A DNA stretch of 38,303 nt from Rhodospirillales bacterium (lineage in GTDB: Bacteria > Pseudomonadota > Gammaproteobacteria > Nevskiales > Nevskiaceae). Under the pieces are notes generated by a model. The model was not told the origin of the DNA, searched no databases, and saw nothing but the letters and a program-made list of their open reading frames with translations. Location: NCBI GenBank assembly GCA_903970615.1, contig CAJCJH010000009.1, forward strand, positions 1-38,303, in the 5' to 3' direction. This document shows positions 1 to 14,178 of the stretch, in pieces. The position numbers and the translations under genes are program-made. Positions within the stretch are counted from its first letter, which is position 1, and every line of letters starts with the position of its first letter.

Positions 1-1621
1 TCGAGATCGGCCTTGACCTCACCTAATGCGCTGGCCCAGTCACCGATGGCATGCTGCCGGTAAAGCCGAACCGTCGGATACCACGGGCTGTCGCTGCGAT
101 CGAGTAGCCAGCGCCAGTCTGGACAAAACGGCAACAGTATCCGGGTCTGTTTTCCCAAGGCACCGTTGAGATGCGCCACGCTGGTATCGACGCTGACCAC
201 CTGATCCATCAACTCGCACAAGGCCGCGGTGTCGCTGAAATCCTCAATCTGATCGCTGAAAACCCGGATATGCGGGTGAGCGGCGAGCGTGGCTTTATCA
301 CGCTCGCGGATCTCCTTTTGCAGACTCACGTATTCAAAGGAGTCTGGAAGATAAGGCATCAGTGCCGACAAAGCGATACTTCGATTGGCGTCGTTGCCAT
401 GTGAGATGTTTCCACTCCACACCAGACCGATACGCGGCCGGGTTTGGGTGCCGAGCACTTGGCTCCAATGAGCGACTTTGCCGGCTTCAGCATGAAGATA
501 AGCCTCACCGCCAGGAATACTTTCCAAGCGAGTGCGAAATGCCAGCGGTAGCGACAGTAACGGGCAGTGGGTATCAAACTCCGGCAAGGCTGAAAGGCTA
601 TCAACCAGAGCACTCACGCCTTCGAGTCCTTGCAGCACGCCCAGCAGTGATTTGGGCACACTCAGAATCACCGCGGCGCCCAAGCTGCTCACCAATTTTG
701 CATAACGGCAAAACTGAAGAGTGTCGCCAAATCCCTGCTCGCTGTGGAGCAGGATGCGCTTTCCCTGCAGCGACTCCTGGCCCAGCCAGAGCGGTTGCGG
801 GAGAGCGCGGGATTTCAGCCCCAGACCCTCGCACTTCCAGCGCCATTCATAGAGCGCCCAGCCCTGATCGAAATCTCCCTTCATCAACGATGCAGTCGAT
901 TTATTGTAGAGGGCGTCTGCGAAGTCTGGCCTTATCGCAAGCGCCTGGTCATAGTTGGCGATGGCTGTGTCGAGCTGGGTCTGCAGTTGTAGCGCGTTGC
1001 CGCGATTGGAATAAGCCTCCGCATAATTCGGCCTAATCGCCAGCGCCTGGTCGTAGCTAGCGATGGCCGCGTCGAACTGGTTGCAATCTTTCAGCGCGAT
1101 GCCACGGTTGAACCAGGCCTCCGCGTAATTGGGCCGGATGGCGATGGCCTTATCGTAGCTGGCGACAGCGGCCTCCAGCCGACCCAGTTTTTTTTGCACG
1201 ACGCCGCGGGCGCAATAGGCTTCCGCAGCGTTCGGTCTGCTGATGATGGCTTTGTCGTAGCTCGCCAGCGCCGCTTCAAACTGCCCGAGTTCTTGTAATG
1301 CCAAGCCCTTGTTGTAGTGTGCATCCGCGAAGTCAGGCTTGATCGCAATCGCCTTGTCGCAGCTCGCGCTGGCTGCTGAAAACTGCTTGAGACCCTGCAA
1401 TGCGGCGCCGAGATTGGAGTGAAAATCCGCATTGCCAGGATGGATTTCAATCGCCTTGCCGATCAGCTCGACGGCATGTTGATGATCGCCGGTTTGCAGC
1501 GCGATGATCCCGAGTCGATGCCATGAATCGAAGTGTTGTGGTTGTTGTTTCAGTATTTCTTCAAAGGCTGCCCTGGCCTGCGCCAAATGCCCTTTTTGAT
1601 GAAGCTCCGCGGCTTGCTCGA
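1..1621 (-). repeat. Module 4 of the giant protein (incomplete at window edge)
   Basis: Residues about 2101-2641. This is the shortest TPR array, with seven full units and a degenerate eighth ending LYEWRWK. The GT-like domain is nearly complete, with EQGFGDTLQFCRY and VVSVDTSVAHLNGALGK, and runs to the closing LYRQHAIGDWAS block before the window ends. Whether a stop or a fifth module follows cannot be seen. Confidence 0.75.
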
Positions 1622-4600
1622 AACCGGTTCGAGCGGTTTCTGCAGAAGGTTCTCCAGCGATTGATTTTGCTGGAGGCGGATTAAAGCGCTCCACCAGATC
1701 GGCTTTGACCTGGGTCAATACGCTGGCCCAGTCACCGATAGTCGTTTGCCGGTAAAGCCGAACCGACGGATACCACGGGCTATCACTGCGATCCAGTAGC
1801 CAGCGCCAATCCGGATTGAACGGCAGCAAAATCCAGGTCGGCTTGCCGAGCGCACCGCTCAGATGGGCGACACTGGTATCTACGCTGATGACGACATCCA
1901 TCAGATCGCACAAGGCTGCAGTATCGCTGAAGTCTCCAATCTGATCGCCGAAAAACCGGATATACGGATGCGCCGTCAGCGTGGCTTTATCACTCTCGCG
2001 GATTTCTTTTTGCAGGCTTACATACTCAAACGTGTCCGGCAGATAAGGAGTAATCGAAGCCAGTGCCAGACTTCGGTTATGGTCATTCTTGTGACCTTGA
2101 ATACCACTCCACACGAGACCGATGCGCGGCTTGTTTTTGATTCCGAGCCTCTCTTTCCATTGAGAGACTTTGGCCGCATCGCTGTGAAGATAAGATTGTT
2201 CAACGGGAATACTGGAGAGTTCGGTTTTGAATGCCAGCGGCAAGGACATCAACGGACAGTGAATGTCGAAATCCGGCAAAGCCGCACCGGTTTCGATGAC
2301 GCGGCTGATGCCATCGACGCCTTGCAGCAATCCAGTCAGAGCCTTCGGCGCTTCCAATAGAACCGTGGCGCCGGATCGACTGAGCAAACCGGCATAGCGG
2401 CAAAACTGAAGGGTGTCGCCCAAGCCCTGTTCGGTGTGTAGCAAAATGGTTTTGCCCTTGAGCGATTCGGCACCGAGCCAGAGAGGCTGCGTAAAAGCGC
2501 GCGGTAACTGGCCATTGCTGCCCTGTTTCCAGCGCCATTCGTAAAGCGCCCAGCCATTCCCGAAATCACCCTTGAGCAGGAGTGATAAGGATTTATTCAG
2601 ATAAGCTGCGGCGCAATCGGGTTTGATCGCAATGGCCTTATCGTAGTCTGCGATGGCAGCGTCGATTCGCATCAGTTGCTGCCAGACGATGCCTCTGTTG
2701 GAGTAGGCTTCGGCGTAATCCGGCCGGATGGCGAGGGCCATATCGTAGCTGGCGATCGCCGCCTCGAACTGCTTGAGTTCGTTCAATGGCAGGCCGCGAT
2801 TCAGGTAGGCCTCCGCGTAATCGGGCCTGATCGCAATGGCTTGATTGCAGCTATCGGTGGCAGGCCCGAACTGTCTGAGTTCGTTCAATGCAAGGCCGCG
2901 GTTCAGATAAGCCTCTGCGCAGTCGGGCTTGATCGCAATGGCCTTGTTGCAACTGTCGATCGCCGCCTCGAACTGTTTGATCTCGTGCAATCCAAGGCCG
3001 AGGTAAGCATAAGCCTCCGCGTAGTCCGGCTTCAGTGCAATAGCCTGTTTGCAGCAGGCGATCGCGGCGTCCACCTGCTTGAGCTCTCTTAACGCGGCGC
3101 CCAGATTTACATGGGTTTGCGCGTTTTCCGGCCGCAACGCAATGGCCTTCTGATAGCTGGCCACCGCTGCCTCGAACTGCTTGAGTCCGTGCAGTGCCGC
3201 GCCGCGATTGGCGTAGGCATCTGCGAAATCCGGCTTGATGACAATGGCGGCCTCGTAACTGGCGATGGCTGCCTCGATCCTTCCGAGTTCATACATCGAA
3301 ACGCCGCGATTGGAATGTGCGCTCGCGTGATCCGGCTTGATCGCAATGGCTTTATCGTAACTGTCGATCGCCGCTGCAAACCGCCGCGACGTATGCAGCG
3401 TAATTCCTCGCTGATAGTGAGTGTCTGCATGGTCCGGACCAAGCTCGATCGCCTTGTCGAAGCTGGCAACGGCCTCGTCGAATCGGCCGAGTTCCCGCAG
3501 TGCAGGACCGAGGTTGCGATAAAAATCGGCGTTGCCAGGATGAAGCGCGATCGCCTTGCCGATCAGCTCAACTGCACGCGGATAATCCCTGCCCTGAAAG
3601 GCAATCACGCCGAGCAGATGCAGTGCATCAAAGCGATCCGGATGCTCGCTCAGGATTTTCTCATAAGCACTTTCAGCCTGAGCCAATTGGCCTTTTTGAT
3701 GCAAAGCCAAGGCTTGTCCGATTGTGATGCTGGCTGGTTGTTCCGTTAACACTATCGTCGTTCTTCCCGCTTGATATTGACTGGACAAGCTCATCAGATC
3801 GGCGCTGACTTTTGCCAATACGGAATTCCAGGCGCCCATGATCTCCTGCCGGTAAAGCCGGGCGGATGGATACCACGGGCTATCGCTGCGATCCAGAAAC
3901 CAGCGCCAATCCGGGCTGAACGGCAGCAGAATCCAGGTCGGCCTGCCAAGTGCGCCGCTCAGATGCGCCACACTGGTATCCACACTGATGACGATATCCA
4001 TACACTCACACAAAGCCGCAGTGTCGCTGAAGTCTTCAATCTCATCGCCGAAAAACCGGATATGCGGGTGAGCGGCCAGCGTGGCTTTATCGTTATCTCT
4101 CAGCTCTTTTTGCAGGCTCACATATTCGAATGACTCCACTAGATAAGGAGTGATCGAAGCAAGGTTCAGGCTGCGATTGAAATCATTCTTGTGTCCAGAA
4201 TTTCCACTCCACACCAGACCGATACGCGGCTTGGTTTTGACTCCGAGCTTCGCTTGCCATTGGGAGACTTTGGCGACATCGCTATGCAGATAAGATTGTT
4301 TAACGGGAATACTGGCCAGTTCGGTTTTGAATGCCAGCGGCAAGGACATCAAGGGGCAGTGATAGTCGAAGTCGGGCAGGGCGGCGCCGTCTTCAAAAAA
4401 AGCGCTGACGCCTTCGAGCCCCTGCAGCACACCGAGCAAAGGTTTAGGTGCTTCAAGCATCACTGTGGAACCGAGCCGCGCCACCAGACTGGCATAGCGG
4501 CAAAAATGGAGCGTGTCGCCGAAGCCGGCTTCGCTGTGCAGCAGGATACGTTTGCCTTGCAGAGATTCGCGGCCCAGCCATAGCGGTTGCGGATAAGGCC

Positions 4601-7600
4601 GCTGCTTCAGTGCCAGATTGCGGCACTGCCAGCGCCACTCATGCAGCGGCAAACCCTGCTTGAAATCGCCGCCGAGTAACAGGCCGATGGATTTATTGAA
4701 ATGCGCTTGCGGAAAATCCGGCCGGATGGCGATAGCCTTGTCGTAGCTGGTGCGCGCAGCGTCAAGCTGCCTAACCACCTGCAAGGCATTGCCGCGATTC
4801 ACATAGGCTTCCGCGTAATCAGGCTGGATCGCTATCGCTTGGTCGTAGCTGGCAATGGCGGCGTCGGGCTGATGCAAATCGAGCAAGGCATTGCCGCGAT
4901 TGGACCAGGCTTCCGTCAAATCCGGCTTCAGCGCCGTGGCCTGATCGTAACTGGCAACCGCAGCTTCGCTCAGCCTTGACGCCTTCTGGGCGTTGCCGCG
5001 GTTGTACCAGGCATCGGCAAAATCCGGCTTGATGGCAATGGCCTTGTCGTAGCTGCCAATCGCTGCTTCCAACTGATTGAGGTCATGCAAGGCGAGGCCG
5101 CGATTGGACCAGGCTTCAGCGAAATCCGGCTTGATCGCAATCGCCTGGTCGTAGCTGGCGACGGCCGCTTGCGGGCGATCCAGCAGTTTCTGCACGATGC
5201 CGCGGTTGTAATAGGCGTGTGCAAAGTCCGGCTTGATGACGACAACCTTGTTATAACTGGCGATGGCGGCATCCAGCTGATTGATCGCCTGCAGCGCCGT
5301 GCCCCGATTGAACCAGGCATCGGCATAATCGGGTTTGATGGCAACCGCCTGGTCATAACTGGCGATAGCACTTTCCAATTGCTTCAGTGCCTGAAGTGCC
5401 GCGCCGCGATTGGAATACGCTTCGGCGTATTGCGGCTTGATGGCGATGGCCTTTTCGTAACTGACAATGGCCGCGCCGTATTGTCCAAGGCCTTGTAATG
5501 CGGCGCCGAGATTGGAATGGAAAACGGCATTGTCCGGCTGAATTCCTATCGCCTTGCCGATCAGATCGGCTGCACTTTGATAATCCTGCGCCTGTAGCGC
5601 AATCAGCCCGAGCAGATGAAGCGCATCGAAGTGATTCGGCTGTGCTTTGAGAATATGTTCGCAGGCAGACTTCGCTTCAGCCGGCCGACCTCTTTGATAA
5701 AGTTCGTGAGCGCGCTGAAAGTCAATTCCGTATTGCTGTGATGATGAATTCGGCGCTGAATGTAATGATGAATTCGATAAGGAGTTTGTAATGATGTTTC
5801 GTTGCGAAGGCGAATCCGCCAGCTTTGCCAGATCGGCTGCAACTTCATCCAGTACCGCCGTCCATCCACCGAAAGTGCGCTGCCGGTAAAGCCGAACCGA
5901 TGGATACCAGGGGCTATCGCGGCGATCGATCATCCAGCGCGCATCCGGGCTGAAAGGCAGCAGAATCCAGGTGCGCTTGCCGAGTGCGCCGCTCAGATGC
6001 GCCACACTGGTATCCACACTGATGACCACATCCATCAGCTCACATAATGCTGCGGTATCGCTGAAGTCCTTGAGTTCATTGCCGACAAACCGGATGTGTG
6101 GATTGGCTGTCAGCGTGGCTTTATCACTCTCGCGGATTTCCTTTTGCAGACTCAGGTATTCGAACGTGTCGGGCAGATAGGGGATCAGTGCCGCCAGCGT
6201 TACGCTACGGTTGACATCATTCACATGTTCAGGGTTTCCGCTCCAGACCAGACCGGCGCGGGGTTTGGTTTTCAAGCCCAGTATTTGCTGCCATCGAGAA
6301 ACTTTTTCCGCATCGGCGCGCAGGTAAGCCTGACGGCCGGGAATAGTATGGAGTTCGGTTTTGCAGGCCAGAGGCAAGGACATCAACGGGCAGTGATAAT
6401 CGAACTCGGGCAGCGCCAGAGTGTTATCGACGAAACGGCTGACACCTTCGAGTCCTTTCAGCAAGCCGACCAGCGGCTTGGGCACGCCCAGCATGACGGT
6501 GGCGCCCATTTCGCTCACCACTTTTGTGTAGCGGCAAAACTGGATGGTGTCGCCCAGACCCTGCTCTGGGTGCAGCAGGATACGTTTGCCTTGCAGGGAT
6601 TCGCGGCCGAGCCAGAGCGGCTGCGGGAAAATATTTTGCTTGAGTCCAAAACCCAGCTGCTTCCAGCGCCATTCATACAGTTCCCAACCAGGCAGGAAAT
6701 CACCTTTCAGCAGTAGCGATACAGCTTTATTGAAGTTGGCCTCGGCATGGTCGGGGTGGATGGCGAGCGCCTGGTCGTAACTGGCGATCGCTTCATCCAG
6801 CCTGGGCACGTGCTGTAGCGCGTTGCCGCGGTTGTAATGCGCTTCGACATAATTCGGCTTGATCGCAATGGCCTTCTCGTAGCTGGCGATGGCTGCGTCC
6901 AGCTGTTTGAGTTCCTGCAAGACAACACCCCGATTGCAATGCGCATCGGCGAAGTCTGGTTTGATCGCAATAGCCTGGTCAAAGCTGGCGATCGCCGCCT
7001 GCGACTGCTTGAGTGCTTTCTGCGCATTGCCGCGATTGGACCAGGCTTCGACAAAATCCGGTTTGATCGCGATCGCGCGGTCGTAGCTGACGATGGCATC
7101 GTCGAACTGCCTAAGCATTTGCAGCGCATTGCCGCGATTGGACCAAGCGCTGACGAAATCCGGCTTGATCGCAATCGCGCGATCGTAACTGGCAACCGCT
7201 GCCTCCGGCCGATTCGCTTCCTTCTGCGAATTGCCCAGGTTGAAGTGCGCATCCGCGAAGTCCGGCTTGATCGCAATGGCTTTGTCGTAACTGGCGATCG
7301 CCGCTTCGAACTGCTTCAGTTCCTGCAGGGCAATACCACGGTTTGAATAGGCTTCGGCGAACTCCGGCTTGATCGCAATGGCCTTGTCGTAACTGGCGAT
7401 CGCCGCCTCGAAGCGCCGCGTTCTTTTTTGCACATTGCCGCGGTTGTAATAAGCTTCCGCATAGTCCGGATTGATCGCAATGGCTTGGTCGTAGCTGGCG
7501 ATCGCCGCTTCCGTTTGATCGAACTCGGCCTGTGCGTTACCACGATTGGAGTAAGCGCTGGCTAAATCCGGCCGCAGGGTAATGGCCTTGTCGTAGCTCT

Positions 7601-7925
7601 CAATCGCCGCCTCGAATTGCCGAAGCTCCTTGAGTGCGGCGCCGAGGTTGGAGTGAAACGCCGGATTGGCTGGATGGATTTCAATCGCCTTGCCGATCAA
7701 CTCGACCGCACGCGGATAATCCCTCGTTTGCAGCGCAATCACGCCGAGCCAGTGCAGGACGTCAAAATGATTGGGCTGCAACGCCAGCGCCTGCTCATAA
7801 ACCGCCCTGGCTTCTGCGAGCTGGCCTTTCTGGTGAAGTTCCAAAGCGTACTGCAGATTGATCGGAGACGCCGCCAAGCCCTTGGCCGGCTTTTTAGCTG
7901 GATTTTTTTTCTGCTTGGGCCGCAT
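1..7925 (-). CDS. Giant four-module TPR / glycosyltransferase-like protein (partial, C-terminus beyond window)
   Basis: I read this frame codon by codon from the ATG at 7925-7923 to the window edge without meeting a stop, giving at least 2641 residues. The chain alternates canonical 34-residue TPR arrays (units like AYSNRGNALQ..AIASYDKAIAIKPDFAE) with about 280-residue domains carrying EQGLGDTIQFCRY, HCPLMSLPLAF, GLVWSGN, FEYVSLQKEIR and VISVDTSVAHLSGALGK. Those domains resemble the GT9/heptosyltransferase-like half found in stand-alone bacterial TPR proteins of about 600-750 residues. The order is TPR-GT four times, with roughly 12, 11, 12 and 8 TPR units counting the degenerate last one. 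There is no signal peptide or membrane segment, and the N-terminus is Lys-rich (MRPKQKKNPAKK), so it is probably cytoplasmic. No clear ribosome site precedes the ATG; an in-frame TAA lies about 60 bases upstream. Sugar donor and acceptor are unknown. Protein O-glycosylation or surface-glycan work is a guess. Confidence 0.88.
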   Translation of the reverse strand, partial: MRPKQKKNPAKKPAKGLAASPINLQYALELHQKGQLAEARAVYEQALALQPNHFDVLHWLGVIALQTRDYPRAVELIGKAIEIHPANPAFHSNLGAALKELRQFEAAIESYDKAITLRPDLASAYSNRGNAQAEFDQTEAAIASYDQAIAINPDYAEAYYNRGNVQKRTRRFEAAIASYDKAIAIKPEFAEAYSNRGIALQELKQFEAAIASYDKAIAIKPDFADAHFNLGNSQKEANRPEAAVASYDRAIAIKPDFVSAWSNRGNALQMLRQFDDAIVSYDRAIAIKPDFVEAWSNRGNAQKALKQSQAAIASFDQAIAIKPDFADAHCNRGVVLQELKQLDAAIASYEKAIAIKPNYVEAHYNRGNALQHVPRLDEAIASYDQALAIHPDHAEANFNKAVSLLLKGDFLPGWELYEWRWKQLGFGLKQNIFPQPLWLGRESLQGKRILLHPEQGLGDTIQFCRYTKVVSEMGATVMLGVPKPLVGLLKGLEGVSRFVDNTLALPEFDYHCPLMSLPLACKTELHTIPGRQAYLRADAEKVSRWQQILGLKTKPRAGLVWSGNPEHVNDVNRSVTLAALIPYLPDTFEYLSLQKEIRESDKATLTANPHIRFVGNELKDFSDTAALCELMDVVISVDTSVAHLSGALGKRTWILLPFSPDARWMIDRRDSPWYPSVRLYRQRTFGGWTAVLDEVAADLAKLADSPSQRNIITNSLSNSSLHSAPNSSSQQYGIDFQRAHELYQRGRPAEAKSACEHILKAQPNHFDALHLLGLIALQAQDYQSAADLIGKAIGIQPDNAVFHSNLGAALQGLGQYGAAIVSYEKAIAIKPQYAEAYSNRGAALQALKQLESAIASYDQAVAIKPDYADAWFNRGTALQAINQLDAAIASYNKVVVIKPDFAHAYYNRGIVQKLLDRPQAAVASYDQAIAIKPDFAEAWSNRGLALHDLNQLEAAIGSYDKAIAIKPDFADAWYNRGNAQKASRLSEAAVASYDQATALKPDLTEAWSNRGNALLDLHQPDAAIASYDQAIAIQPDYAEAYVNRGNALQVVRQLDAARTSYDKAIAIRPDFPQAHFNKSIGLLLGGDFKQGLPLHEWRWQCRNLALKQRPYPQPLWLGRESLQGKRILLHSEAGFGDTLHFCRYASLVARLGSTVMLEAPKPLLGVLQGLEGVSAFFEDGAALPDFDYHCPLMSLPLAFKTELASIPVKQSYLHSDVAKVSQWQAKLGVKTKPRIGLVWSGNSGHKNDFNRSLNLASITPYLVESFEYVSLQKELRDNDKATLAAHPHIRFFGDEIEDFSDTAALCECMDIVISVDTSVAHLSGALGRPTWILLPFSPDWRWFLDRSDSPWYPSARLYRQEIMGAWNSVLAKVSADLMSLSSQYQAGRTTIVLTEQPASITIGQALALHQKGQLAQAESAYEKILSEHPDRFDALHLLGVIAFQGRDYPRAVELIGKAIALHPGNADFYRNLGPALRELGRFDEAVASFDKAIELGPDHADTHYQRGITLHTSRRFAAAIDSYDKAIAIKPDHASAHSNRGVSMYELGRIEAAIASYEAAIVIKPDFADAYANRGAALHGLKQFEAAVASYQKAIALRPENAQTHVNLGAALRELKQVDAAIACCKQAIALKPDYAEAYAYLGLGLHEIKQFEAAIDSCNKAIAIKPDCAEAYLNRGLALNELRQFGPATDSCNQAIAIRPDYAEAYLNRGLPLNELKQFEAAIASYDMALAIRPDYAEAYSNRGIVWQQLMRIDAAIADYDKAIAIKPDCAAAYLNKSLSLLLKGDFGNGWALYEWRWKQGSNGQLPRAFTQPLWLGAESLKGKTILLHTEQGLGDTLQFCRYAGLLSRSGATVLLEAPKALTGLLQGVDGISRVIETGAALPDFDIHCPLMSLPLAFKTELSSIPVEQSYLHSDAAKVSQWKERLGIKNKPRIGLVWSGIQGHKNDHNRSLALASITPYLPDTFEYVSLQKEIRESDKATLTAHPYIRFFGDQIGDFSDTAALCDLMDVVISVDTSVAHLSGALGKPTWILLPFNPDWRWLLDRSDSPWYPSVRLYRQTTIGDWASVLTQVKADLVERFNPPPAKSIAGEPSAETARTGFEQAAELHQKGHLAQARAAFEEILKQQPQHFDSWHRLGIIALQTGDHQHAVELIGKAIEIHPGNADFHSNLGAALQGLKQFSAASASCDKAIAIKPDFADAHYNKGLALQELGQFEAALASYDKAIISRPNAAEAYCARGVVQKKLGRLEAAVASYDKAIAIRPNYAEAWFNRGIALKDCNQFDAAIASYDQALAIRPNYAEAYSNRGNALQLQTQLDTAIANYDQALAIRPDFADALYNKSTASLMKGDFDQGWALYEWRWKCEGLGLKSRALPQPLWLGQESLQGKRILLHSEQGFGDTLQFCRYAKLVSSLGAAVILSVPKSLLGVLQGLEGVSALVDSLSALPEFDTHCPLLSLPLAFRTRLESIPGGEAYLHAEAGKVAHWSQVLGTQTRPRIGLVWSGNISHGNDANRSIALSALMPYLPDSFEYVSLQKEIRERDKATLAAHPHIRVFSDQIEDFSDTAALCELMDQVVSVDTSVAHLNGALGKQTRILLPFCPDWRWLLDRSDSPWYPTVRLYRQHAIGDWASALGEVKADL
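1695..3724 (-). repeat. Module 3 of the giant protein
   Basis: Residues about 1400-2077. Eleven TPRs plus a degenerate twelfth precede the GT-like domain. Several TPRs carry Cys where the consensus has Tyr (for example AIACCKQAIALKPDYAE and AIDSCNKAIAIKPDCAE), which sets this array apart. The GT half keeps EQGLGDTLQFCRY and VISVDTSVAHLSGALGK. A Pro/Ala-rich linker (FNPPPAKSIAGEPSAETA) follows. Confidence 0.78.
3790..5723 (-). repeat. Module 2 of the giant protein
   Basis: Residues about 734-1378. Ten TPRs and a degenerate eleventh (ends LHEWRWQ) precede the GT-like domain. This domain has EAGFGDTLHFCRY where other modules read EQGxGDT(L/I)QFCRY, so the glutamine after GDT(L/I) is a histidine. 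At nucleotide level its GT half closely resembles module 3. A linker with SSQYQAGRTTIVLTEQ follows. Confidence 0.78.
5829..7925 (-). repeat. Module 1 of the giant protein (TPR then GT-like domain)
   Basis: Residues about 1-699. A basic N-terminus is followed from about residue 22 by eleven TPRs and a degenerate twelfth ending at LYEWRWKQ (about residue 415), then the GT-like domain. It differs from the other modules in the last conserved block, where PDARWMIDRRDSPWY replaces the PDWRWLLDRSDSPWY type. A Ser/Asn/Gln-rich linker (nt about 5725-5828) leads to module 2. Confidence 0.8.
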
Positions 7926-8065
7926 GATGAAATCCGGTACTCGGCAAGGTTCTGCAGGTCGATGATTGTCGCGTAAAGTTTAAGCGCTGATTCGCTCGGG
8001 GATTTTTTGCTGCGAGCGGGCGCGAACTCGCTTCAGGAAACGTATCTTTTCGCACTCGTGGACTA
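7926..8065. other. Intergenic region between addA-like gene and giant TPR gene
   Basis: A 140-base gap between two minus-strand genes. An imperfect hairpin (GCGAG/CTCGC) lies around 8007-8030 but has no T-run on the minus strand, so a terminator is not supported. I see no convincing promoter. Read-through from the add genes into the giant gene is possible. Confidence 0.4.
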
Positions 8066-11000
8066 TCAGTTTTCATAGCGCAGCAAACGATCGCCTTCCG
8101 GAAAATATAGCGCCGCAACTACGGTCTTCCCCGGCCGCTGCGATTTCAGCAGCTCCGAATAGAGCATCAGTTGCGGCCGATAGGTTTCCGCACTTTGCGC
8201 GATGTAGCGCTCGATCGCATCGACGGCGATCGGCTGCGCAGAGGTCTTGTAATCGACGATCCAAAGCTCGCCTTCGCCGGTCTCGAAACAGCGATCGAGC
8301 AACGCGCTGATCCAGCGGCCGTCCCGATATCCGGCGAGCGCATATTCGCTCCTCGCCCAGACATGCGGGCCGAGTATCCAGCGGCCGGTTGCGCTGGCCA
8401 GCGTGCGGTCGACGAGTTCGAGCACGCGCGCCACGGCGTTTTCGACTTGCGGTTCGGGCAGGCTCAGGCGACGGAAGCCGGCGGCTAGGGCGCTGGCGCG
8501 TGTGCTGGCGCCAGCATGCCAGCGTTCGATGCCGTCGCGGCTGATTTTTTCCAGCGCCTGATGGAATAGCGTGCCGACCAATTGCGCGTAGATATCGCTA
8601 TCGGCGCGCTTGTCGTCGGCCGCGGAAAGTACGGCTTCACTCGGCCGCAGGCTGCGTTGCAGTTGCGGCAGGTAAATCGGATAAGCGGATTCGTCTTCGT
8701 CAGGCAGCACCAAATCGATCGGCAGACGCGGCGCGCGCGGCGGCGAACCGGCCGCATTCATGGTGGAATCTTCGCTGGGAGATTCGCCATCCGTGGCAAT
8801 CATCGTCGCGCGATCGATGCCTTTCAGCAGCGCCTCGGCGAAAGAGTTTGATTTTGGTTTGCGTGCGCCGGTCTTCTCTTCGATGTCTGCGCAGAAACAG
8901 ATGTCCAGCGTGCGTCTGGCGCGCGTCGCGGCGACATACAGCAGCCGCAGACCTTCGCTGCTGCGCACGCGCGCATGCAGCCCGTGTGCGAAGTTGTAAA
9001 GCTGCAACGCGGCGAGCGTGTGCGGCGCATCCTGCGGCCAATGACGCGGTGGCTTCGGCACCAGCAGCGGGCCATGCGGCGTTTCGGTGAGATGCAGCAG
9101 CGGCCGGTCCTCGGCCCGCGCCGCGCGCCCGGCACCGACCATTACAACATGATCGAACTCCAGACCTTTAGCCTTGTGGATCGTCATCACCTGTACCGCA
9201 CCTTCGCCGGCAGCTGCATAAAGCTCAGCGACGGCGCGCTCGAAACGCCGCGCATCGGCCAGCCCTTGCGTGGCATGTTCGCGCAGCAGCCCGAAGGTAC
9301 GTCGCACATCGCCGAGTGAAGTGGCATCCACGCAAGCCGGGCCACCGAGTGCTGTCCACAGGATTTCGACGCGCTCCGGCAGACTGGCGCGGGCGTGGTC
9401 GGCGTTGATCGCAGCGAGCAGATCGAGCAAAGTTTTGACTCTGGCGCAGCCTTCTTCCGACAGCGCAGATAAATCCGCTGCCATCAGCCGCTCGGGCCAG
9501 GTCAGTCGGCGACGGTCGATCGACAAGCGGAGCAAGTCCGCCCAGCTCAAGCCGACGAAAGGCGCGCGCAGCAGCACCGCCCAGGCCAGCCGATCTTCCG
9601 GATGCCACAACGCACGGGCAAGGGCGAGCACATCGCGCACGGCAGGCAATTCGACCAGTGGATCGACATCCTGACAAGCCGCGCGCACGCCAAGCGCACG
9701 CAGTTCGGCGAGCGTCGCGCGCACATGCGAACGCGCGCGCACGAGGATCGCCACACTGCCGCCAGCCGCCGCATAAGCTGCGGCGAGTCGTGCAGCGCCA
9801 CGCGCCTCATCGGCCGCGCAATCCTTATTCCAGACATGCACGCGCACCGCCGCTGGCTGAGTTTCATCTGCCGCTGCGGTTCGTGCCGCGATACTCGGCG
9901 AGTAAGCGACGGCGCCGCTGAGCGCATCGTCAAAGTCCGGAAAAATGCGCTCGAATGCGGCATTGAACCAATCGACCACCGCCGGCTCGCTGCGGAAATT
10001 GGCCGAGAGCCGCAGCACATTCAATGGCAATTCGCCGAGCCTGCGCTCTTGCAGTAATTGCTGGAACAGCCGCACTTCGGCTTTGCGAAAAGCGTAGATC
10101 GATTGCTGCGGATCGCCGACCAGAAACAGCGAGCGGCCGTCGCCTGCGCTCCAGCCGAGCGTGAGATTGCGCAGCAGCGCAAGCTGCGATTCGCTGGTGT
10201 CCTGCATTTCGTCGACCAACAGATGACGCAGCTGCGCATCGCGCCGCAGCAGCGCATCGCCATAGCCGAAACCGCTGCCGGAGTCCTCATTGAACTCGTC
10301 ATCGGCATCGCTCCCGAAATCATTGCGGTATTCCCGGTCTTCGCGCGGACGCAGTGCGGCGCGTGCGGCTTCGGCGATGCCGACAAAATCGGTTTCGCCG
10401 CGTTCGCCCATCACTGCGCGCAGATGGCCGAGCAGTCTCAACAGCAGTATTCGCAGGGCTTCACGCAGTTCAATCAATTCTCCCGGCACCTGCGCGGGCG
10501 GTAGCTCGCGTAATGCACGCGCGGCGTTTTCGAGAGCTTCGTCGTCGACGCGCGCAGCCAGCAGCGGACGCAAAAGCTTGGTGTGTTCGGCGCCTTTGGC
10601 GAAGCTCGGCGCGCGCAGGCCGGAGGTTTTTCGCAGCGTTATGGGGTCGTTCTTGGTCAGTAGCGGCCAAGTCAGTGCCGCGAAAGCTGCGGCATTTTCG
10701 GCGCCGGTTCGAGGCCAGTGTTGCATCGAAGCAAATGGCGCGAGCGAGGCTTCGACCGAAGACGCCGCGCGAACGATCGCCAGCAGAGTGGCTTGTTCGC
10801 TGGCATTGAATTGATCGCTGAAGTGCTCCTGCGCGGCGACATGAATCGCTTCAAGCACCTGCCGTTCGTGCGCCTGCCAATCGAAATCCGCGGCCAGCGT
10901 GTGCTGCCATTGCTCGCGCCGCGCGAGCAGATCGGCGAACGGCGCAATCAGGCGATCGGCGCGATTGCCGTAAGCGCGCAGCCACGCGGCGGCAGCCTCG

Positions 11001-11548
11001 CGCAGATCCTGCGGTGCCTGCGTGTCCTCGATTTCGGCGAACAAGGCCAGTACCGCGTCTTCGTACAGCAAGCCCGCATCTTCCACCACGCGCGGCCGTC
11101 CGCCAAGGCCGGAGAGCAGCGGCAATTCGGCGGCGATGTGCGCTTGCAGGCCGTCGATCGTGGTCGCGCGCAAACGCCCGGGATTGGCGGTGAGCGACCA
11201 GCGCTGCGAAGCCTCGCGTGCGGCGTCGCGCTGCAGAACGATTTGCGCAAAAGCGAGGCTGCGCGCGTCGTGCGCATCGCTCGCCGGCGTACCGGCCGCG
11301 GCGCGTTGCAAAACGCCGAGCACGCGATTGCGAATCTCGGCTGCGGCCTTGTTGGTGAAGGTCATCGCGACGACCTGCTCCGGCGTATCGACCGTCGCCA
11401 GTGCCGCCAGCATGCGTTGCACCAGCAGGCCGGTTTTGCCGGAGCCTGCCGGCGCAACGGCGATGATGTGCCGGCGCAGATCGAGTGCCGCAAGTCGCAC
11501 TTCGGCGTCGGCCGGTTCTGCTGCGAACGCGCTTTGCGGATCACTCAT
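8066..11548 (-). CDS. addA: AddA-like UvrD-family helicase with C-terminal RecB-type nuclease
   Basis: An ATP-dependent superfamily 1A helicase/exonuclease subunit expected to unwind and resect double-strand DNA ends before RecA loading. All motifs are visible in 1160 residues: Walker A APAGSGKTG (about 32-40), Ia VVAMTFTNKAAAEIRNR (about 59-75), Walker B LLVDEMQDT (about 440), GDPQQSIYAFRKAE (about 476), motif IV LRLSANFRS, motif V TIHKAKGLEFDHV (about 786) and motif VI LLYVAATRAR (about 867). The C-terminus has the PD-(D/E)XK nuclease signature LWIVDYKTS (about 1094) followed by QLMLY. It is full length and looks active. The start overlaps the addB-like stop as ATGA (11545-11548), so translation is probably coupled. 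AddA and RecB share this architecture. The AddB-like partner, and the absence of visible recC or recD, favour AddA. Confidence 0.88.
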   Translation of the reverse strand: MSDPQSAFAAEPADAEVRLAALDLRRHIIAVAPAGSGKTGLLVQRMLAALATVDTPEQVVAMTFTNKAAAEIRNRVLGVLQRAAAGTPASDAHDARSLAFAQIVLQRDAAREASQRWSLTANPGRLRATTIDGLQAHIAAELPLLSGLGGRPRVVEDAGLLYEDAVLALFAEIEDTQAPQDLREAAAAWLRAYGNRADRLIAPFADLLARREQWQHTLAADFDWQAHERQVLEAIHVAAQEHFSDQFNASEQATLLAIVRAASSVEASLAPFASMQHWPRTGAENAAAFAALTWPLLTKNDPITLRKTSGLRAPSFAKGAEHTKLLRPLLAARVDDEALENAARALRELPPAQVPGELIELREALRILLLRLLGHLRAVMGERGETDFVGIAEAARAALRPREDREYRNDFGSDADDEFNEDSGSGFGYGDALLRRDAQLRHLLVDEMQDTSESQLALLRNLTLGWSAGDGRSLFLVGDPQQSIYAFRKAEVRLFQQLLQERRLGELPLNVLRLSANFRSEPAVVDWFNAAFERIFPDFDDALSGAVAYSPSIAARTAAADETQPAAVRVHVWNKDCAADEARGAARLAAAYAAAGGSVAILVRARSHVRATLAELRALGVRAACQDVDPLVELPAVRDVLALARALWHPEDRLAWAVLLRAPFVGLSWADLLRLSIDRRRLTWPERLMAADLSALSEEGCARVKTLLDLLAAINADHARASLPERVEILWTALGGPACVDATSLGDVRRTFGLLREHATQGLADARRFERAVAELYAAAGEGAVQVMTIHKAKGLEFDHVVMVGAGRAARAEDRPLLHLTETPHGPLLVPKPPRHWPQDAPHTLAALQLYNFAHGLHARVRSSEGLRLLYVAATRARRTLDICFCADIEEKTGARKPKSNSFAEALLKGIDRATMIATDGESPSEDSTMNAAGSPPRAPRLPIDLVLPDEDESAYPIYLPQLQRSLRPSEAVLSAADDKRADSDIYAQLVGTLFHQALEKISRDGIERWHAGASTRASALAAGFRRLSLPEPQVENAVARVLELVDRTLASATGRWILGPHVWARSEYALAGYRDGRWISALLDRCFETGEGELWIVDYKTSAQPIAVDAIERYIAQSAETYRPQLMLYSELLKSQRPGKTVVAALYFPEGDRLLRYEN

Positions 11549-14178
11549 CCGGCGAGGTCCGCGTCGTTGGTGGCAGCGGTTTCGTCATCCGCGTCGAGCA
11601 GGCCGGCCAGCACCAGCAGCGGCGCATTGCGCAGCCGCAGAGCTTGCGCTGGATCGATGTCCGCGCGGCCTTCGAGAAATCCGCGCGCCATCGCTTCGAG
11701 GGCCGCGCGCCAAGCTTGAATCTGCGAGGCGAAATTGCCGCCGCTGGCTGGGGCGTTGCGCATTCGCGGCTGCGTTGACCACGCGCGCCAACGCAGTAGT
11801 TCAGGTGCGCCGTCGGCGACATGGCCGAAGGCGATATCGGCAATTTCGCCGCCGTATTGCGGATCGAGCAACACGGCATACAGCGGCAACTGCGGCGCGT
11901 TCAAGTGTTCTTCGCGCCAGCCATTGGCATCGATATAGCCGCCGGTTTTGTAGTCGATCAGCGTCAGTCGATCGGCCGCTTCATCGACTGCGCGATCAAT
12001 GCGGTCGATGCGCAGCGACATCGGCAAACCAGCCAGTACACTTTTGAATTTGTGCTCGTGTTCGAGCACGAGAAAATCATCCGTGCGCGCAGCTTCGAGC
12101 CGCAGCCAGGCGGTGAGCACATCGCTGAGCCTTGCAGCTTCTAGGCTCACCAGCATGCGGCCGAAATCGCCGACAGGCAGATATTTGCGCAGCAGCGGTT
12201 CGAGCACTTCGCGAATGCGCGCCGTGCGGCCATCCTCACCGAGCGTCTGCAAGTTGGAACGGGTATCGACACCGCGCCAGAAATCCGCGAGCGCTTCGTG
12301 CACCAGCTTGCCCTGCACCGCAGCAGGCAGACCGAGACCGATTGCGGGCAAGGGTTCAATGCCCAGACGCACTGTGCAGAAGGCGAAGAACGGCGCCTGC
12401 GCATACTGCTCGAACAACCGCGTGCTGCCGGTGATCTGCTCGCTGGCTTGCACCGGCGGCACCGGGTCGCTCGCCGGCAGTCGGGCATGTGGACCGGTTG
12501 TCGCAAGCGTCTCGGCACGACTCGCAATCGAGAGTGCTGGCGCCTCTTCCCAGTTCACATCGAACAGCGGCGAAGCCAGCAGTTCACCGCCGCGTGCGTC
12601 GTGCCGTGGCGCGATGACGATCGTTTCGCGGGCGTTGGATAGCAGCGCGGCCAGTTGCCTGCGGCGATGCGCGAGCCAGCTGAGCGGACTCGCCTGCGGC
12701 ACGCCGGCGGCACGTTGCAGTTCGATCGGCAGAAAGGGAGTGGCCTGTGCCGCGCCCGGGAATGCGCCGGTATCGGCGTCGATCACGATCAGTAGATCGC
12801 AGGACATGCCGATGGCATCTTCGGCATCGAGCAGTTGCACCGGCTGCGCATGATCCGCGCGCGGCTCGAAACGCCGCTTGAACAATTCGTTGAGCCACAT
12901 CCGCGCACGACCGATATCGATCGCGCCGGTCTGCGCATCGAGCGCGGCCAGCATCGTCAGCGCGCGGCGCAATTCCTGAACGGTCTGGAAAACGCTGGAG
13001 GTTGGCGCATCCACGCTAGGCCAGCCGGCTGCTTCGCAGCGTGCGCTGAAATGCGCCGACCAAGCGCTCGGCAGCGCACGGCGCGGCGCGTCACTGACGA
13101 TCTGCGCCAGCGCGCCCAGCCGCGCTTGCAGCAGCACGGGCGCCAGTTCAGCGATTTTGGAGAGGCTGATACGCAGTGCTCCGCTTTCGCGCAGCTTGCG
13201 GTCGATCGCTGCTGCAGCCGCATGCGATTCGACGTGCGCAAACCAGGTGCCAAGCAATAATTGCGCAGCGCGCTCGGGCGGATTGTCGATGGCATCGATC
13301 GCAATCAGCGCCGAGAGTCCCGCCGCCCAGGGTGAATCGCTGAGCTTGCGCGCGGCATCCCAGCGCCAGGGTGCGCGGGCAGGATTTCCCCCAGCGATCG
13401 GCGTGCGCAGCGCAGGGGCAACGAACTCGATCAGCGCGTCTTCGAGCAAAGCGCGCTTCGCATCCGCGTCCGGCATGGCGACGACGATGCGCGGCGGCAC
13501 GCTGGCGTGATCCGCATGCGCGGCGAGGCGCTGACGGATCGTTGCAGCGACGAGGCGCAGTTGTGCGGCGTCGTCTGCGCAGCGCCAGGCGCGAAGGCTG
13601 TTTGGCGTCGTCGTCGCTCCAGCATGCGCGATGACTTGGGTGACGCCACTCAGCGCATCGAGCACCGCGTGTTCGGCCGGCGTCGTCAGTTCGCAAGCAA
13701 ATAGTTCGACGGCCAACGGCGGCGTGATAGTGCCATTACGCAAACCCTGAGCGACGATTGCCGGCAGATGTTCTACAGAGAGCCAGCGGTGCTCGCGCAT
13801 ATTGGCCGCGACGCGCCGACGCCAGCTTTGCCAGGCGCGCTGTTCGTCGGAATACGCCGGTGCATCATCCACCGCGATCGCATATTCCTGCGCCAGCCGT
13901 TCGGCTTCGCGCGCCTCGCGGGCGCAGGCACTGGCCGAGAGCACGCCGCGACGATCGCGCTCCACCACGGCCAGCCACAGCGCCTGCATCTGCGTGCTGT
14001 TGAGCAACTGTTCGCCGGGCCAGGAATCGGCCCAGATTTCGGCGATCCACTGGCGCAGGCTGCGCACCTGCGGCGTTTCCCATACGTCGCGCCCGGCGGC
14101 ACGTTCGGCGAGATTGAGATCTTCGCGCAAACTACGCGCAATGCGATCGCTGGCGGTGAGAATCAGCGTTGACGACAT
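11545..14178 (-). CDS. addB: AddB-like inactivated helicase / PD-(D/E)XK nuclease-family DNA repair protein
   Basis: Partner subunit of the downstream helicase-nuclease, 877 residues, resembling the proteobacterial 'probable DNA repair protein' relatives of AddB. The N-terminus (LILTASDRIARSLREDL) lacks a Walker A motif. A degenerate Walker-B-like segment (CDLLIVIDADTGAFPG) lies mid-protein. The C-terminal nuclease fold has LVHEALADFWRG (about 623), LTLIDYKTGGY (about 737) and QLPLYAVLL. AddB relatives normally carry four Cys iron-sulfur ligands around the nuclease. Here the usual CPF-type position reads APFFAFC, and the terminal C-x2-C-x5-C spacing reads LRLRNAPLLV, with Leu, Arg and Val at the Cys positions, so the cluster is probably missing. 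It stops within the addA ATGA overlap. The MITE lies just upstream. The subfamily name is less certain than the role. Confidence 0.75.
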   Translation of the reverse strand: MSSTLILTASDRIARSLREDLNLAERAAGRDVWETPQVRSLRQWIAEIWADSWPGEQLLNSTQMQALWLAVVERDRRGVLSASACAREAREAERLAQEYAIAVDDAPAYSDEQRAWQSWRRRVAANMREHRWLSVEHLPAIVAQGLRNGTITPPLAVELFACELTTPAEHAVLDALSGVTQVIAHAGATTTPNSLRAWRCADDAAQLRLVAATIRQRLAAHADHASVPPRIVVAMPDADAKRALLEDALIEFVAPALRTPIAGGNPARAPWRWDAARKLSDSPWAAGLSALIAIDAIDNPPERAAQLLLGTWFAHVESHAAAAAIDRKLRESGALRISLSKIAELAPVLLQARLGALAQIVSDAPRRALPSAWSAHFSARCEAAGWPSVDAPTSSVFQTVQELRRALTMLAALDAQTGAIDIGRARMWLNELFKRRFEPRADHAQPVQLLDAEDAIGMSCDLLIVIDADTGAFPGAAQATPFLPIELQRAAGVPQASPLSWLAHRRRQLAALLSNARETIVIAPRHDARGGELLASPLFDVNWEEAPALSIASRAETLATTGPHARLPASDPVPPVQASEQITGSTRLFEQYAQAPFFAFCTVRLGIEPLPAIGLGLPAAVQGKLVHEALADFWRGVDTRSNLQTLGEDGRTARIREVLEPLLRKYLPVGDFGRMLVSLEAARLSDVLTAWLRLEAARTDDFLVLEHEHKFKSVLAGLPMSLRIDRIDRAVDEAADRLTLIDYKTGGYIDANGWREEHLNAPQLPLYAVLLDPQYGGEIADIAFGHVADGAPELLRWRAWSTQPRMRNAPASGGNFASQIQAWRAALEAMARGFLEGRADIDPAQALRLRNAPLLVLAGLLDADDETAATNDADLAG

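Follow-up and report, generated by a model that had tools for sequence, protein, structure and literature searches.

The DNA analysed here, the whole of contig CAJCJH010000009.1 of the Rhodospirillales bacterium assembly GCA_903970615.1 (38,303 nucleotides; hereafter the window, and contig C9 of genome G000 in our numbering), encodes on its minus strand, at the left edge, a chain of at least four consecutive modules, each made of a tetratricopeptide repeat (TPR) array and a glycosyltransferase (GT) domain. We propose, with a probability of about 0.5, that this chain is a protein O-glycosyltransferase with several heads, which have one donor in common and differ on the acceptor side. In each module the TPR superhelix would grip an acceptor protein, and a GT9-like catalytic domain of the GT-B type would follow it. 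All heads would use one sugar donor, since the C-terminal half of the GT domain is unusually conserved between modules, and they would serve different sites or acceptors, since the N-terminal halves have diverged. The chain itself would have arisen from a single TPR-GT gene, lying between addA and kdpA, that was duplicated in tandem and in frame.

Four modules in one uninterrupted frame

A single open reading frame (ORF) begins with ATG at 7925 and runs free of stops to position 3, over 2641 codons (2659 from stop to stop), and it ends there because contig C9 ends there; the initial annotation had noted correctly that its end is not reached, but as C9 is a complete contig, the leftward extension that it advised cannot simply be made. 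GT domains were located with a profile built from the GT parts and the repeats with a TPR profile, and the frame holds four GT domains with their TPR arrays (Table 1), as that annotation had described. The linkers, which it had placed at about 5725-5828, 3725-3790 and 1622-1694, are consistent with the gaps between GT ends and the next TPR starts and measure about 20-33 residues. In module 1 the TPR start is degenerate, with one weak partial match at residues 35-53. No promoter-like site was found in 7850-8250.

Separate TPR-GT genes wrongly joined in the assembly could give a frame of this kind, and the genome is indeed a draft of 126 contigs (98% complete) in which the chain breaks off within a repeat family, where the contig ends. 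A collapse, however, predicts near-identical copies and a mis-join usually a longer shared word, whereas modules 1-4 share 67-72% protein identity and 69-74% DNA identity in their GT parts, and exact repeats reach at most 44 bp within 1-8000 and 26 bp with the end of C26, a second contig of the genome. Moreover, frames with several GTs occur in 12 other genomes and modules of such chains pair off between two genera, as described below. We therefore regard the four-module chain as very probably real, judging from these sequence comparisons. A collapsed or chimeric assembly, which the initial annotation had named as a circumstance that could undo its claim, is unlikely from the repeats, through which it was checked, and as the main explanation of the frame it is extremely improbable. 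The four-module chain is not unique.

A search of the genome with the GT of module 2 met five places, the four in C9 and a fifth at 7940-8848 of C26 (8985 bases). The latter lies in a minus-strand frame of 354 codons (7922-8983), whose beginning is cut by the contig end within a TPR and which terminates at a stop. This fifth GT probably lies next to modules 1-4 and may belong to the same chain.

Fold and family of the GT domain

Pfam searches of the chain gave TPR families and a weak match to PF01075 (GT9), which scored 51.4 bits over the whole repetitive chain and 20 bits over one site (cut-off 22). The AlphaFold2 model of the module 3 GT, built from 48 sequences, had a mean predicted local distance difference test (pLDDT) score of 94.4, and the seven best solved structures that Foldseek matched to it were the GT9 protein 3tov (two chains), WaaF (1psw), WaaC (three rows) and TibC (4rap). 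The first six rows (3tov, WaaF and WaaC) had E values of 2e-8 to 3e-5, and TibC stood at rank 7. These seven matches share 11-15% identity with the model at TMq (a template-modelling score) 0.46-0.56 and root-mean-square deviation 5.7-8.4, so that the kinship to GT9 structures is distant; chains of two photosystem-NDH supercomplexes were also among the matches, at ranks 8 and 31. When the whole of module 3 was modelled (pLDDT 92.7, predicted template-modelling score 0.80), 24 helices in twelve TPR-like pairs were followed by the GT. Thus, by its predicted structure, the GT half is a GT9-like domain with a distant heptosyltransferase fold of the GT-B type.

The initial annotation had proposed to compare this half with the GT9 and GT41 models of CAZy. 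GT9 is supported by fold and motif, and GT41 is not: PF13844, the defining domain of GT41, had no match in the source genome, although the same search was positive in 2 of 14 control genomes, and membership in the GT41 family of O-GlcNAc transferase (OGT) was rejected on this ground. O-GlcNAc transferase is likewise a TPR array followed by a GT-B enzyme, and the difference lies in this unmatched domain. WaaC and WaaF, the GT9 enzymes which share fold and VDT...H motif with the GT of the window, are not known to have TPRs and act on lipopolysaccharide (LPS).

Conservation and origin of the modules

Among 48 aligned GT domains (alignment A1, drawn from 93 reference domains) 15 columns are invariant, including G73-D74 and D253/H258 in the numbering of the module 3 GT, which we take to be catalytic or donor-binding. 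A weak profile match to WaaC (E 0.34) pairs D253, of the VDT...H motif, with position 261 of that enzyme. Since scoring the window's GTs against an alignment that contains them would be circular, the 43 relatives were scored alone, and all five GTs kept every one of the 15 invariant positions, together with 32 of the 36 positions conserved in ≥90% of the relatives. The claim of the initial annotation that each GT half keeps its conserved blocks is hereby upheld. In the ten pairs formed by the five GT domains, synonymous divergence (dS) was 0.92-1.48 and the ratio of nonsynonymous to synonymous divergence (dN/dS) 0.15-0.30; by these codon comparisons the five are old duplicates, all constrained by purifying selection.

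A tree of 100 GT domains from 93 frames placed the five GTs in one clade (support 100/98) adjoining single-module genes, for example of Limnohabitans, and this single clade argues for tandem duplication within the lineage itself as the way in which the chain grew. The tree leaves out domains covering about 60% of the model or less as well as overlapping loci of the same place, and its bootstrap had not fully settled. A Methylococcales locus (L024), with three GTs in 2060 codons and an adjacent one-GT gene, formed a separate clade (100/99), and the two GTs of L036 were not sisters. In the genus of the source organism the family is patchy, 4 of 17 congeners matching the module 2 GT; one congener (G007) has a 1190-codon frame with two GTs.

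Divergence of the acceptor and donor halves

In GT-B enzymes the N-terminal half faces the acceptor and the C-terminal half the donor. Between the window's GTs, that of C26 included, the N half (residues 41-168) has diverged 1.53 times as far as the C half (residues 169-300; 10 pairs). For the other family members of A1 the same ratio was 1.07 (903 pairs), with 0.86-1.25 among the 25 closest of these pairs. Synonymous differences (pS) between the window's GTs were 0.51-0.65 in the N half and 0.49-0.64 in the C half, and because they are alike in both halves, gene conversion was rejected as the source of the conserved donor halves.

We also compared the ratio in a wider set of 176 domains, each required to span about 290 or more of the 316 positions; the fused chains L056, L146 and L147 were dropped by this requirement. 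Single-GT genes from different loci gave a 95th percentile of 1.35-1.36 at identities of 0.3-0.6; the identity bin nearest to the modules of the window (0.6-0.7) had a 95th percentile of 1.28 and a maximum of 1.32 over 10 pairs only. Twelve loci with separate tandem genes had mean ratios of 0.92-1.33. A mean above 1.36 was found in five of 17 fused chains, namely the window, L024, L139, L141 and L158. In L024 (6614-14885) heads 1 and 2 show no difference in the C-terminal half of the GT, synonymous sites included, which suggests a recent gene conversion or an assembly effect at that locus.

The initial annotation had advanced another idea, that the chain could bind one long substrate (a repetitive one, in the form weighed here) at several points or glycosylate it processively. 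The presence of several TPR arrays in one chain, joined by linkers, is in keeping with it, but a gene for a repetitive substrate was not seen among the 20 neighbouring ORFs scanned, and the heads appear non-equivalent on the acceptor side. Judged from the aligned sequences, the contrast between halves would be better explained by heads that share a donor and have acceptor sites of their own than by four processive heads that are equivalent, and we consider a processive enzyme very improbable.

Recurrence in other genomes

In a class-level sample, A1 matched in 61 of 369 genomes, with at most six candidates scored per genome and frame counts accordingly rough. By a hand count of 141 rows, 14 of about 118 frames, the window's own included, carried more than one GT, and these came from 13 of the 61 genomes; the count takes in split pieces and frames truncated at contig ends. 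The other frames (about 104 of 118) hold one GT, so that the initial annotation was right to call one TPR array with one GT the usual form. A phylum-level sample, with at most five candidates scored per genome and equally rough frame counts, gave matches in 101 of 398 genomes. The proportion of fused chains among the fetched loci (17/139) is biased, since these were partly chosen for holding several GTs.

Three frames with four GTs have stops at both ends: L136 (2730 codons), L137 (2562) and L154 (2497). Four is the largest number of GTs seen in any frame, and five would be the largest if the C26 module belongs to the chain. Since three- and four-GT chains are thus present in other genomes, the chain of the window is not one odd assembly. 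Three modules of L136 and L138, which come from two genera of one family, pair one to one at distances of 0.37, 0.41 and 0.44 (from a tree of 164 rows with a short search, as for the next distance), L136 having four GTs and L138 three, with the extra module in L136. This pairing suggests that a multi-module chain has been conserved across genera; L137, from the same genus as L136 and also with four GTs, speaks to the contrary, as it pairs with L136 only at distances above 1.

These observations bear on the possibility that the modules are redundant tandem duplicates which do the same job, their fusion being a by-product of unequal recombination within a repetitive gene that added heads and no new function. 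In its favor, TPR numbers vary between the modules of the window (9, 8, 9 and 5), module number varies between related chains (four in L136, three in L138), and separate tandem TPR-GT genes exist (five in L028 and three each in L022, L030 and L033). It is opposed by the purifying selection on every head despite dS of 0.92-1.48, by the acceptor halves diverging faster than the family baseline, and by the pairing of modules between two genera. Redundancy is, in our judgment, a possible but clearly weaker reading than a multi-headed enzyme with differing acceptor sides.

Other forms of the family were seen in the course of this survey. The five TPR-GT genes of L028 (2509-10918) stand in a row as nearly abutting separate frames, an unfused counterpart of the window's chain; in L016 (6365-13240) a frame of 2292 codons has a single GT in mid-frame; and two phage records (MW202512.1 and ON615601.1) carry distant GT relatives of 27-28% identity over >90% of the GT length.

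Comparison with known systems and the nature of the acceptor

The nearest parallel in architecture is FlmG of Caulobacter crescentus, in which, according to the excerpted text of the report on it, a chain of 596 residues has one TPR part and then one GT-B part and modifies flagellins with pseudaminic acid (PMC7591256). In the same excerpts the TPR part binds flagellins in a two-hybrid assay, while the GT part alone neither binds flagellin nor rescues motility or modification (PMC7591256). Each module of the window resembles FlmG in combining an N-terminal TPR part and a C-terminal GT-B domain in one chain. The two, compared by architecture alone, differ in that FlmG has a single TPR/GT pair and a flagellin acceptor, whereas the window has at least four modules in a genome without Flagellin_N. 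The same TPR and GT unit is found in proteins named by NCBI as tetratricopeptide repeat-containing glycosyltransferase family protein, a name borne by 3 of the 40 plasmid matches listed (GT-part identity to the window 41-53% over the 40); in the three annotated regions fetched such proteins have one GT per frame, unlike the window with its four or more.

TibC (4rap, 4rb4), an iron-containing dodecameric heptosyltransferase, scores among the best structures matched to the GT model but has a single GT with 10-12% identity, in contrast to the fused modules of the window, and presumably has no TPRs. Going by the title of a published paper, the TibC family modifies bacterial autotransporters, which would be a precedent for the fold acting on protein.

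We hold with moderate confidence, by analogy, that the acceptor of the chain is a protein, which is favored by the precedent of FlmG together with the occurrence of relatives near flagellin or pilin-like genes. The multi-module protein is probably cytoplasmic, as its lysine-rich N-terminus shows by eye no hydrophobic stretch. The donor may perhaps be ADP-heptose, by analogy of fold alone. Since the genome has four further GT9 matches above cut-off, it is suggested that the source organism makes ADP-heptose.

Alternatively, the acceptor may be a glycan or lipid of the cell surface, such as LPS or exopolysaccharide, the TPRs organising a biosynthetic complex. GT9 is the fold of the LPS heptosyltransferases, and the neighbors of a relative in Azospirillum ramasamyi are genes of polysaccharide type. 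Yet the architecture is that of FlmG, whose TPR part binds protein acceptors, relatives lie by flagellin or pilin-like genes in three cases, and the four other strong GT9 matches in the genome could serve such a role with no need for a TPR architecture. We consider a glycan or lipid acceptor rather unlikely.

Several observations weigh against a multi-headed protein O-glycosyltransferase with one donor and differing acceptor sides. The raised half-ratio is not general, 12 of the 17 fused chains having no mean above 1.36, and in L024 it reflects homogenisation (C-half pS 0-0.08 among the three fused heads). Single baseline pairs reach 1.94 at identities of 0.5-0.6 and 2.62 at 0.8-0.95, and the ten pairs of the window come from five sequences and are hence non-independent. 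The structural match to heptosyltransferases is distant (TMq at most 0.56), and the sequence match to the solved ones is very weak (E 0.34). No acceptor gene was evident among the 20 ORFs scanned beside the chain, which carry repair, metabolic, transport and regulatory domains. PF00669 (Flagellin_N) was unmatched in the 98% complete genome and positive in 4 of 14 control genomes, which means that the substrate of FlmG type is absent from the source genome; a FlmG-like modification of flagellin there was accordingly rejected. Finally, the Azospirillum ramasamyi relative adjoins glycosyltransferases and methyltransferases of polysaccharide type.

Neighboring genes and the addA-kdpA locus

Among 885 genes called around 70 loci there was no single conserved partner. 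The widest cluster of neighbor genes covered 8 loci, its one tested member being a TPR-GT41 protein, and the next covered 7 loci, with an ABC transporter as its one tested member; the clusters were made by single linkage and are possibly loose. On a plasmid of Rhodovastum atsumiense (L149, 2223-10972) a TPR-GT gene is separated by about 4.5 kb from a flagellin gene, which has flaF and flbT close by on its far side. Single-module TPR-GT genes have a type IV pilin-like gene about 2 kb away in L009 (pilin-like gene at 12922-13377) and in L011 (13217-13636), and both loci are also found in the cluster with the TPR-GT41 member. A pilin motif was present in 2 of 800 neighbor genes, too few for a claim of enrichment, and a typed flagellin motif was found in none of the neighbor genes, in a search without positive control.

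Table 1. Positions of the multi-module frame, its parts and the upstream flanking genes in the window
Feature	Position	Strand	Basis or remark
Multi-module TPR-GT ORF	3..7925	-	2641 codons, open at contig end
Module 1 TPR array	6744..7868	-	9 canonical 34-residue repeats after degenerate start
Module 1 GT9-like domain, with capping TPR-like stretch	5823..6770	-	GT profile
Linker 1, Ser/Asn-rich	5725..5822	-	Sequence and GT end
Module 2 TPR array	4713..5522	-	8 canonical repeats
Module 2 GT9-like domain	3789..4736	-	GT profile
Linker 2	3725..3788	-	Sequence and GT end
Module 3 TPR array	2610..3527	-	9 canonical repeats; whole-module model
Module 3 GT9-like domain	1689..2636	-	GT profile and predicted structure
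Linker 3	1622..1688	-	Sequence and GT end
Module 4 TPR array	918..1427	-	5 canonical repeats
Module 4 GT9-like domain, touching contig edge, frame unclosed	3..944	-	GT profile
addA-like upstream flank: UvrD-type helicase with PD-(D/E)XK domain	8066..11548	-	
addB-like upstream flank: PD-(D/E)XK protein	11545..14178	-	

Upstream of the chain lie two genes which we take to be addA and addB (Table 1), and C26 carries, besides the fifth GT, kdpA and kdpB (named from sequence). In two congeners, G006 and G017, relatives of the window's fdxA, addB and addA precede, in one orientation with them, relatives of the kdpA and kdpB of C26, with an addA-to-kdpA spacing of about 1.1 kb and about 0.4 kb and with no TPR-GT gene between addA and kdpA. 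Going by this gene order, the ends of C9 and C26 probably lie opposite one another across a gap, the two contigs being kept unjoined. The TPR-GT unit, together with a TIR gene of C26, would then sit between addA and kdpA in the source genome. No bridging contig with another GT of this kind was met in the genome search; with a TPR stretch as query, contigs besides C9 and C26 matched at 27-34% identity only and gave no bridge, and neither bases 1-150 of the window nor the last 201 bases of C26 had an exact match elsewhere. Third-position G+C was 0.649 in the chain and 0.658 in the fifth GT, 0.705-0.78 in six other genes and 0.548 in the TIR gene.

The latter (C26, locus L062, 5516-7792, plus strand) encodes a protein with a TIR domain (TIR_2, with a ThsB-like TIR match) and TPRs, is convergent with the fifth GT, and is possibly a defence or signalling gene. 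A close relative of addA (56-66% identity) was present in 2 of 16 congeners searched, the other 14 having distant ones (best E 8e-19), and among 17 congeners addB was found at E≤1e-60 in the same two that have the close addA; these searches suggest that the genus is not uniform at the addAB locus.

Meaning of the multi-headed form

We found no description of multi-module TPR-GT chains in the open-licence literature, mostly covered as listings and abstracts. TPR glycosyltransferases are already known, and the multi-headed form would be a variation on them. We suggest, as a tentative extension in which our confidence is low, that chains with five or more modules and one donor, in which each TPR array and acceptor face has its own site or acceptor, amount to a programme of multi-site glycosylation, which arose several times from single TPR-GT genes and was kept by selection. 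The programming of specificity in protein O-glycosylation is called poorly understood in the abstract of the FlmG report (PMC7591256). A chain of diverged modules, each with a grip and a catalytic head, would be a natural set for locating that specificity, be it in the TPRs, in the acceptor half of the GT, or in both.

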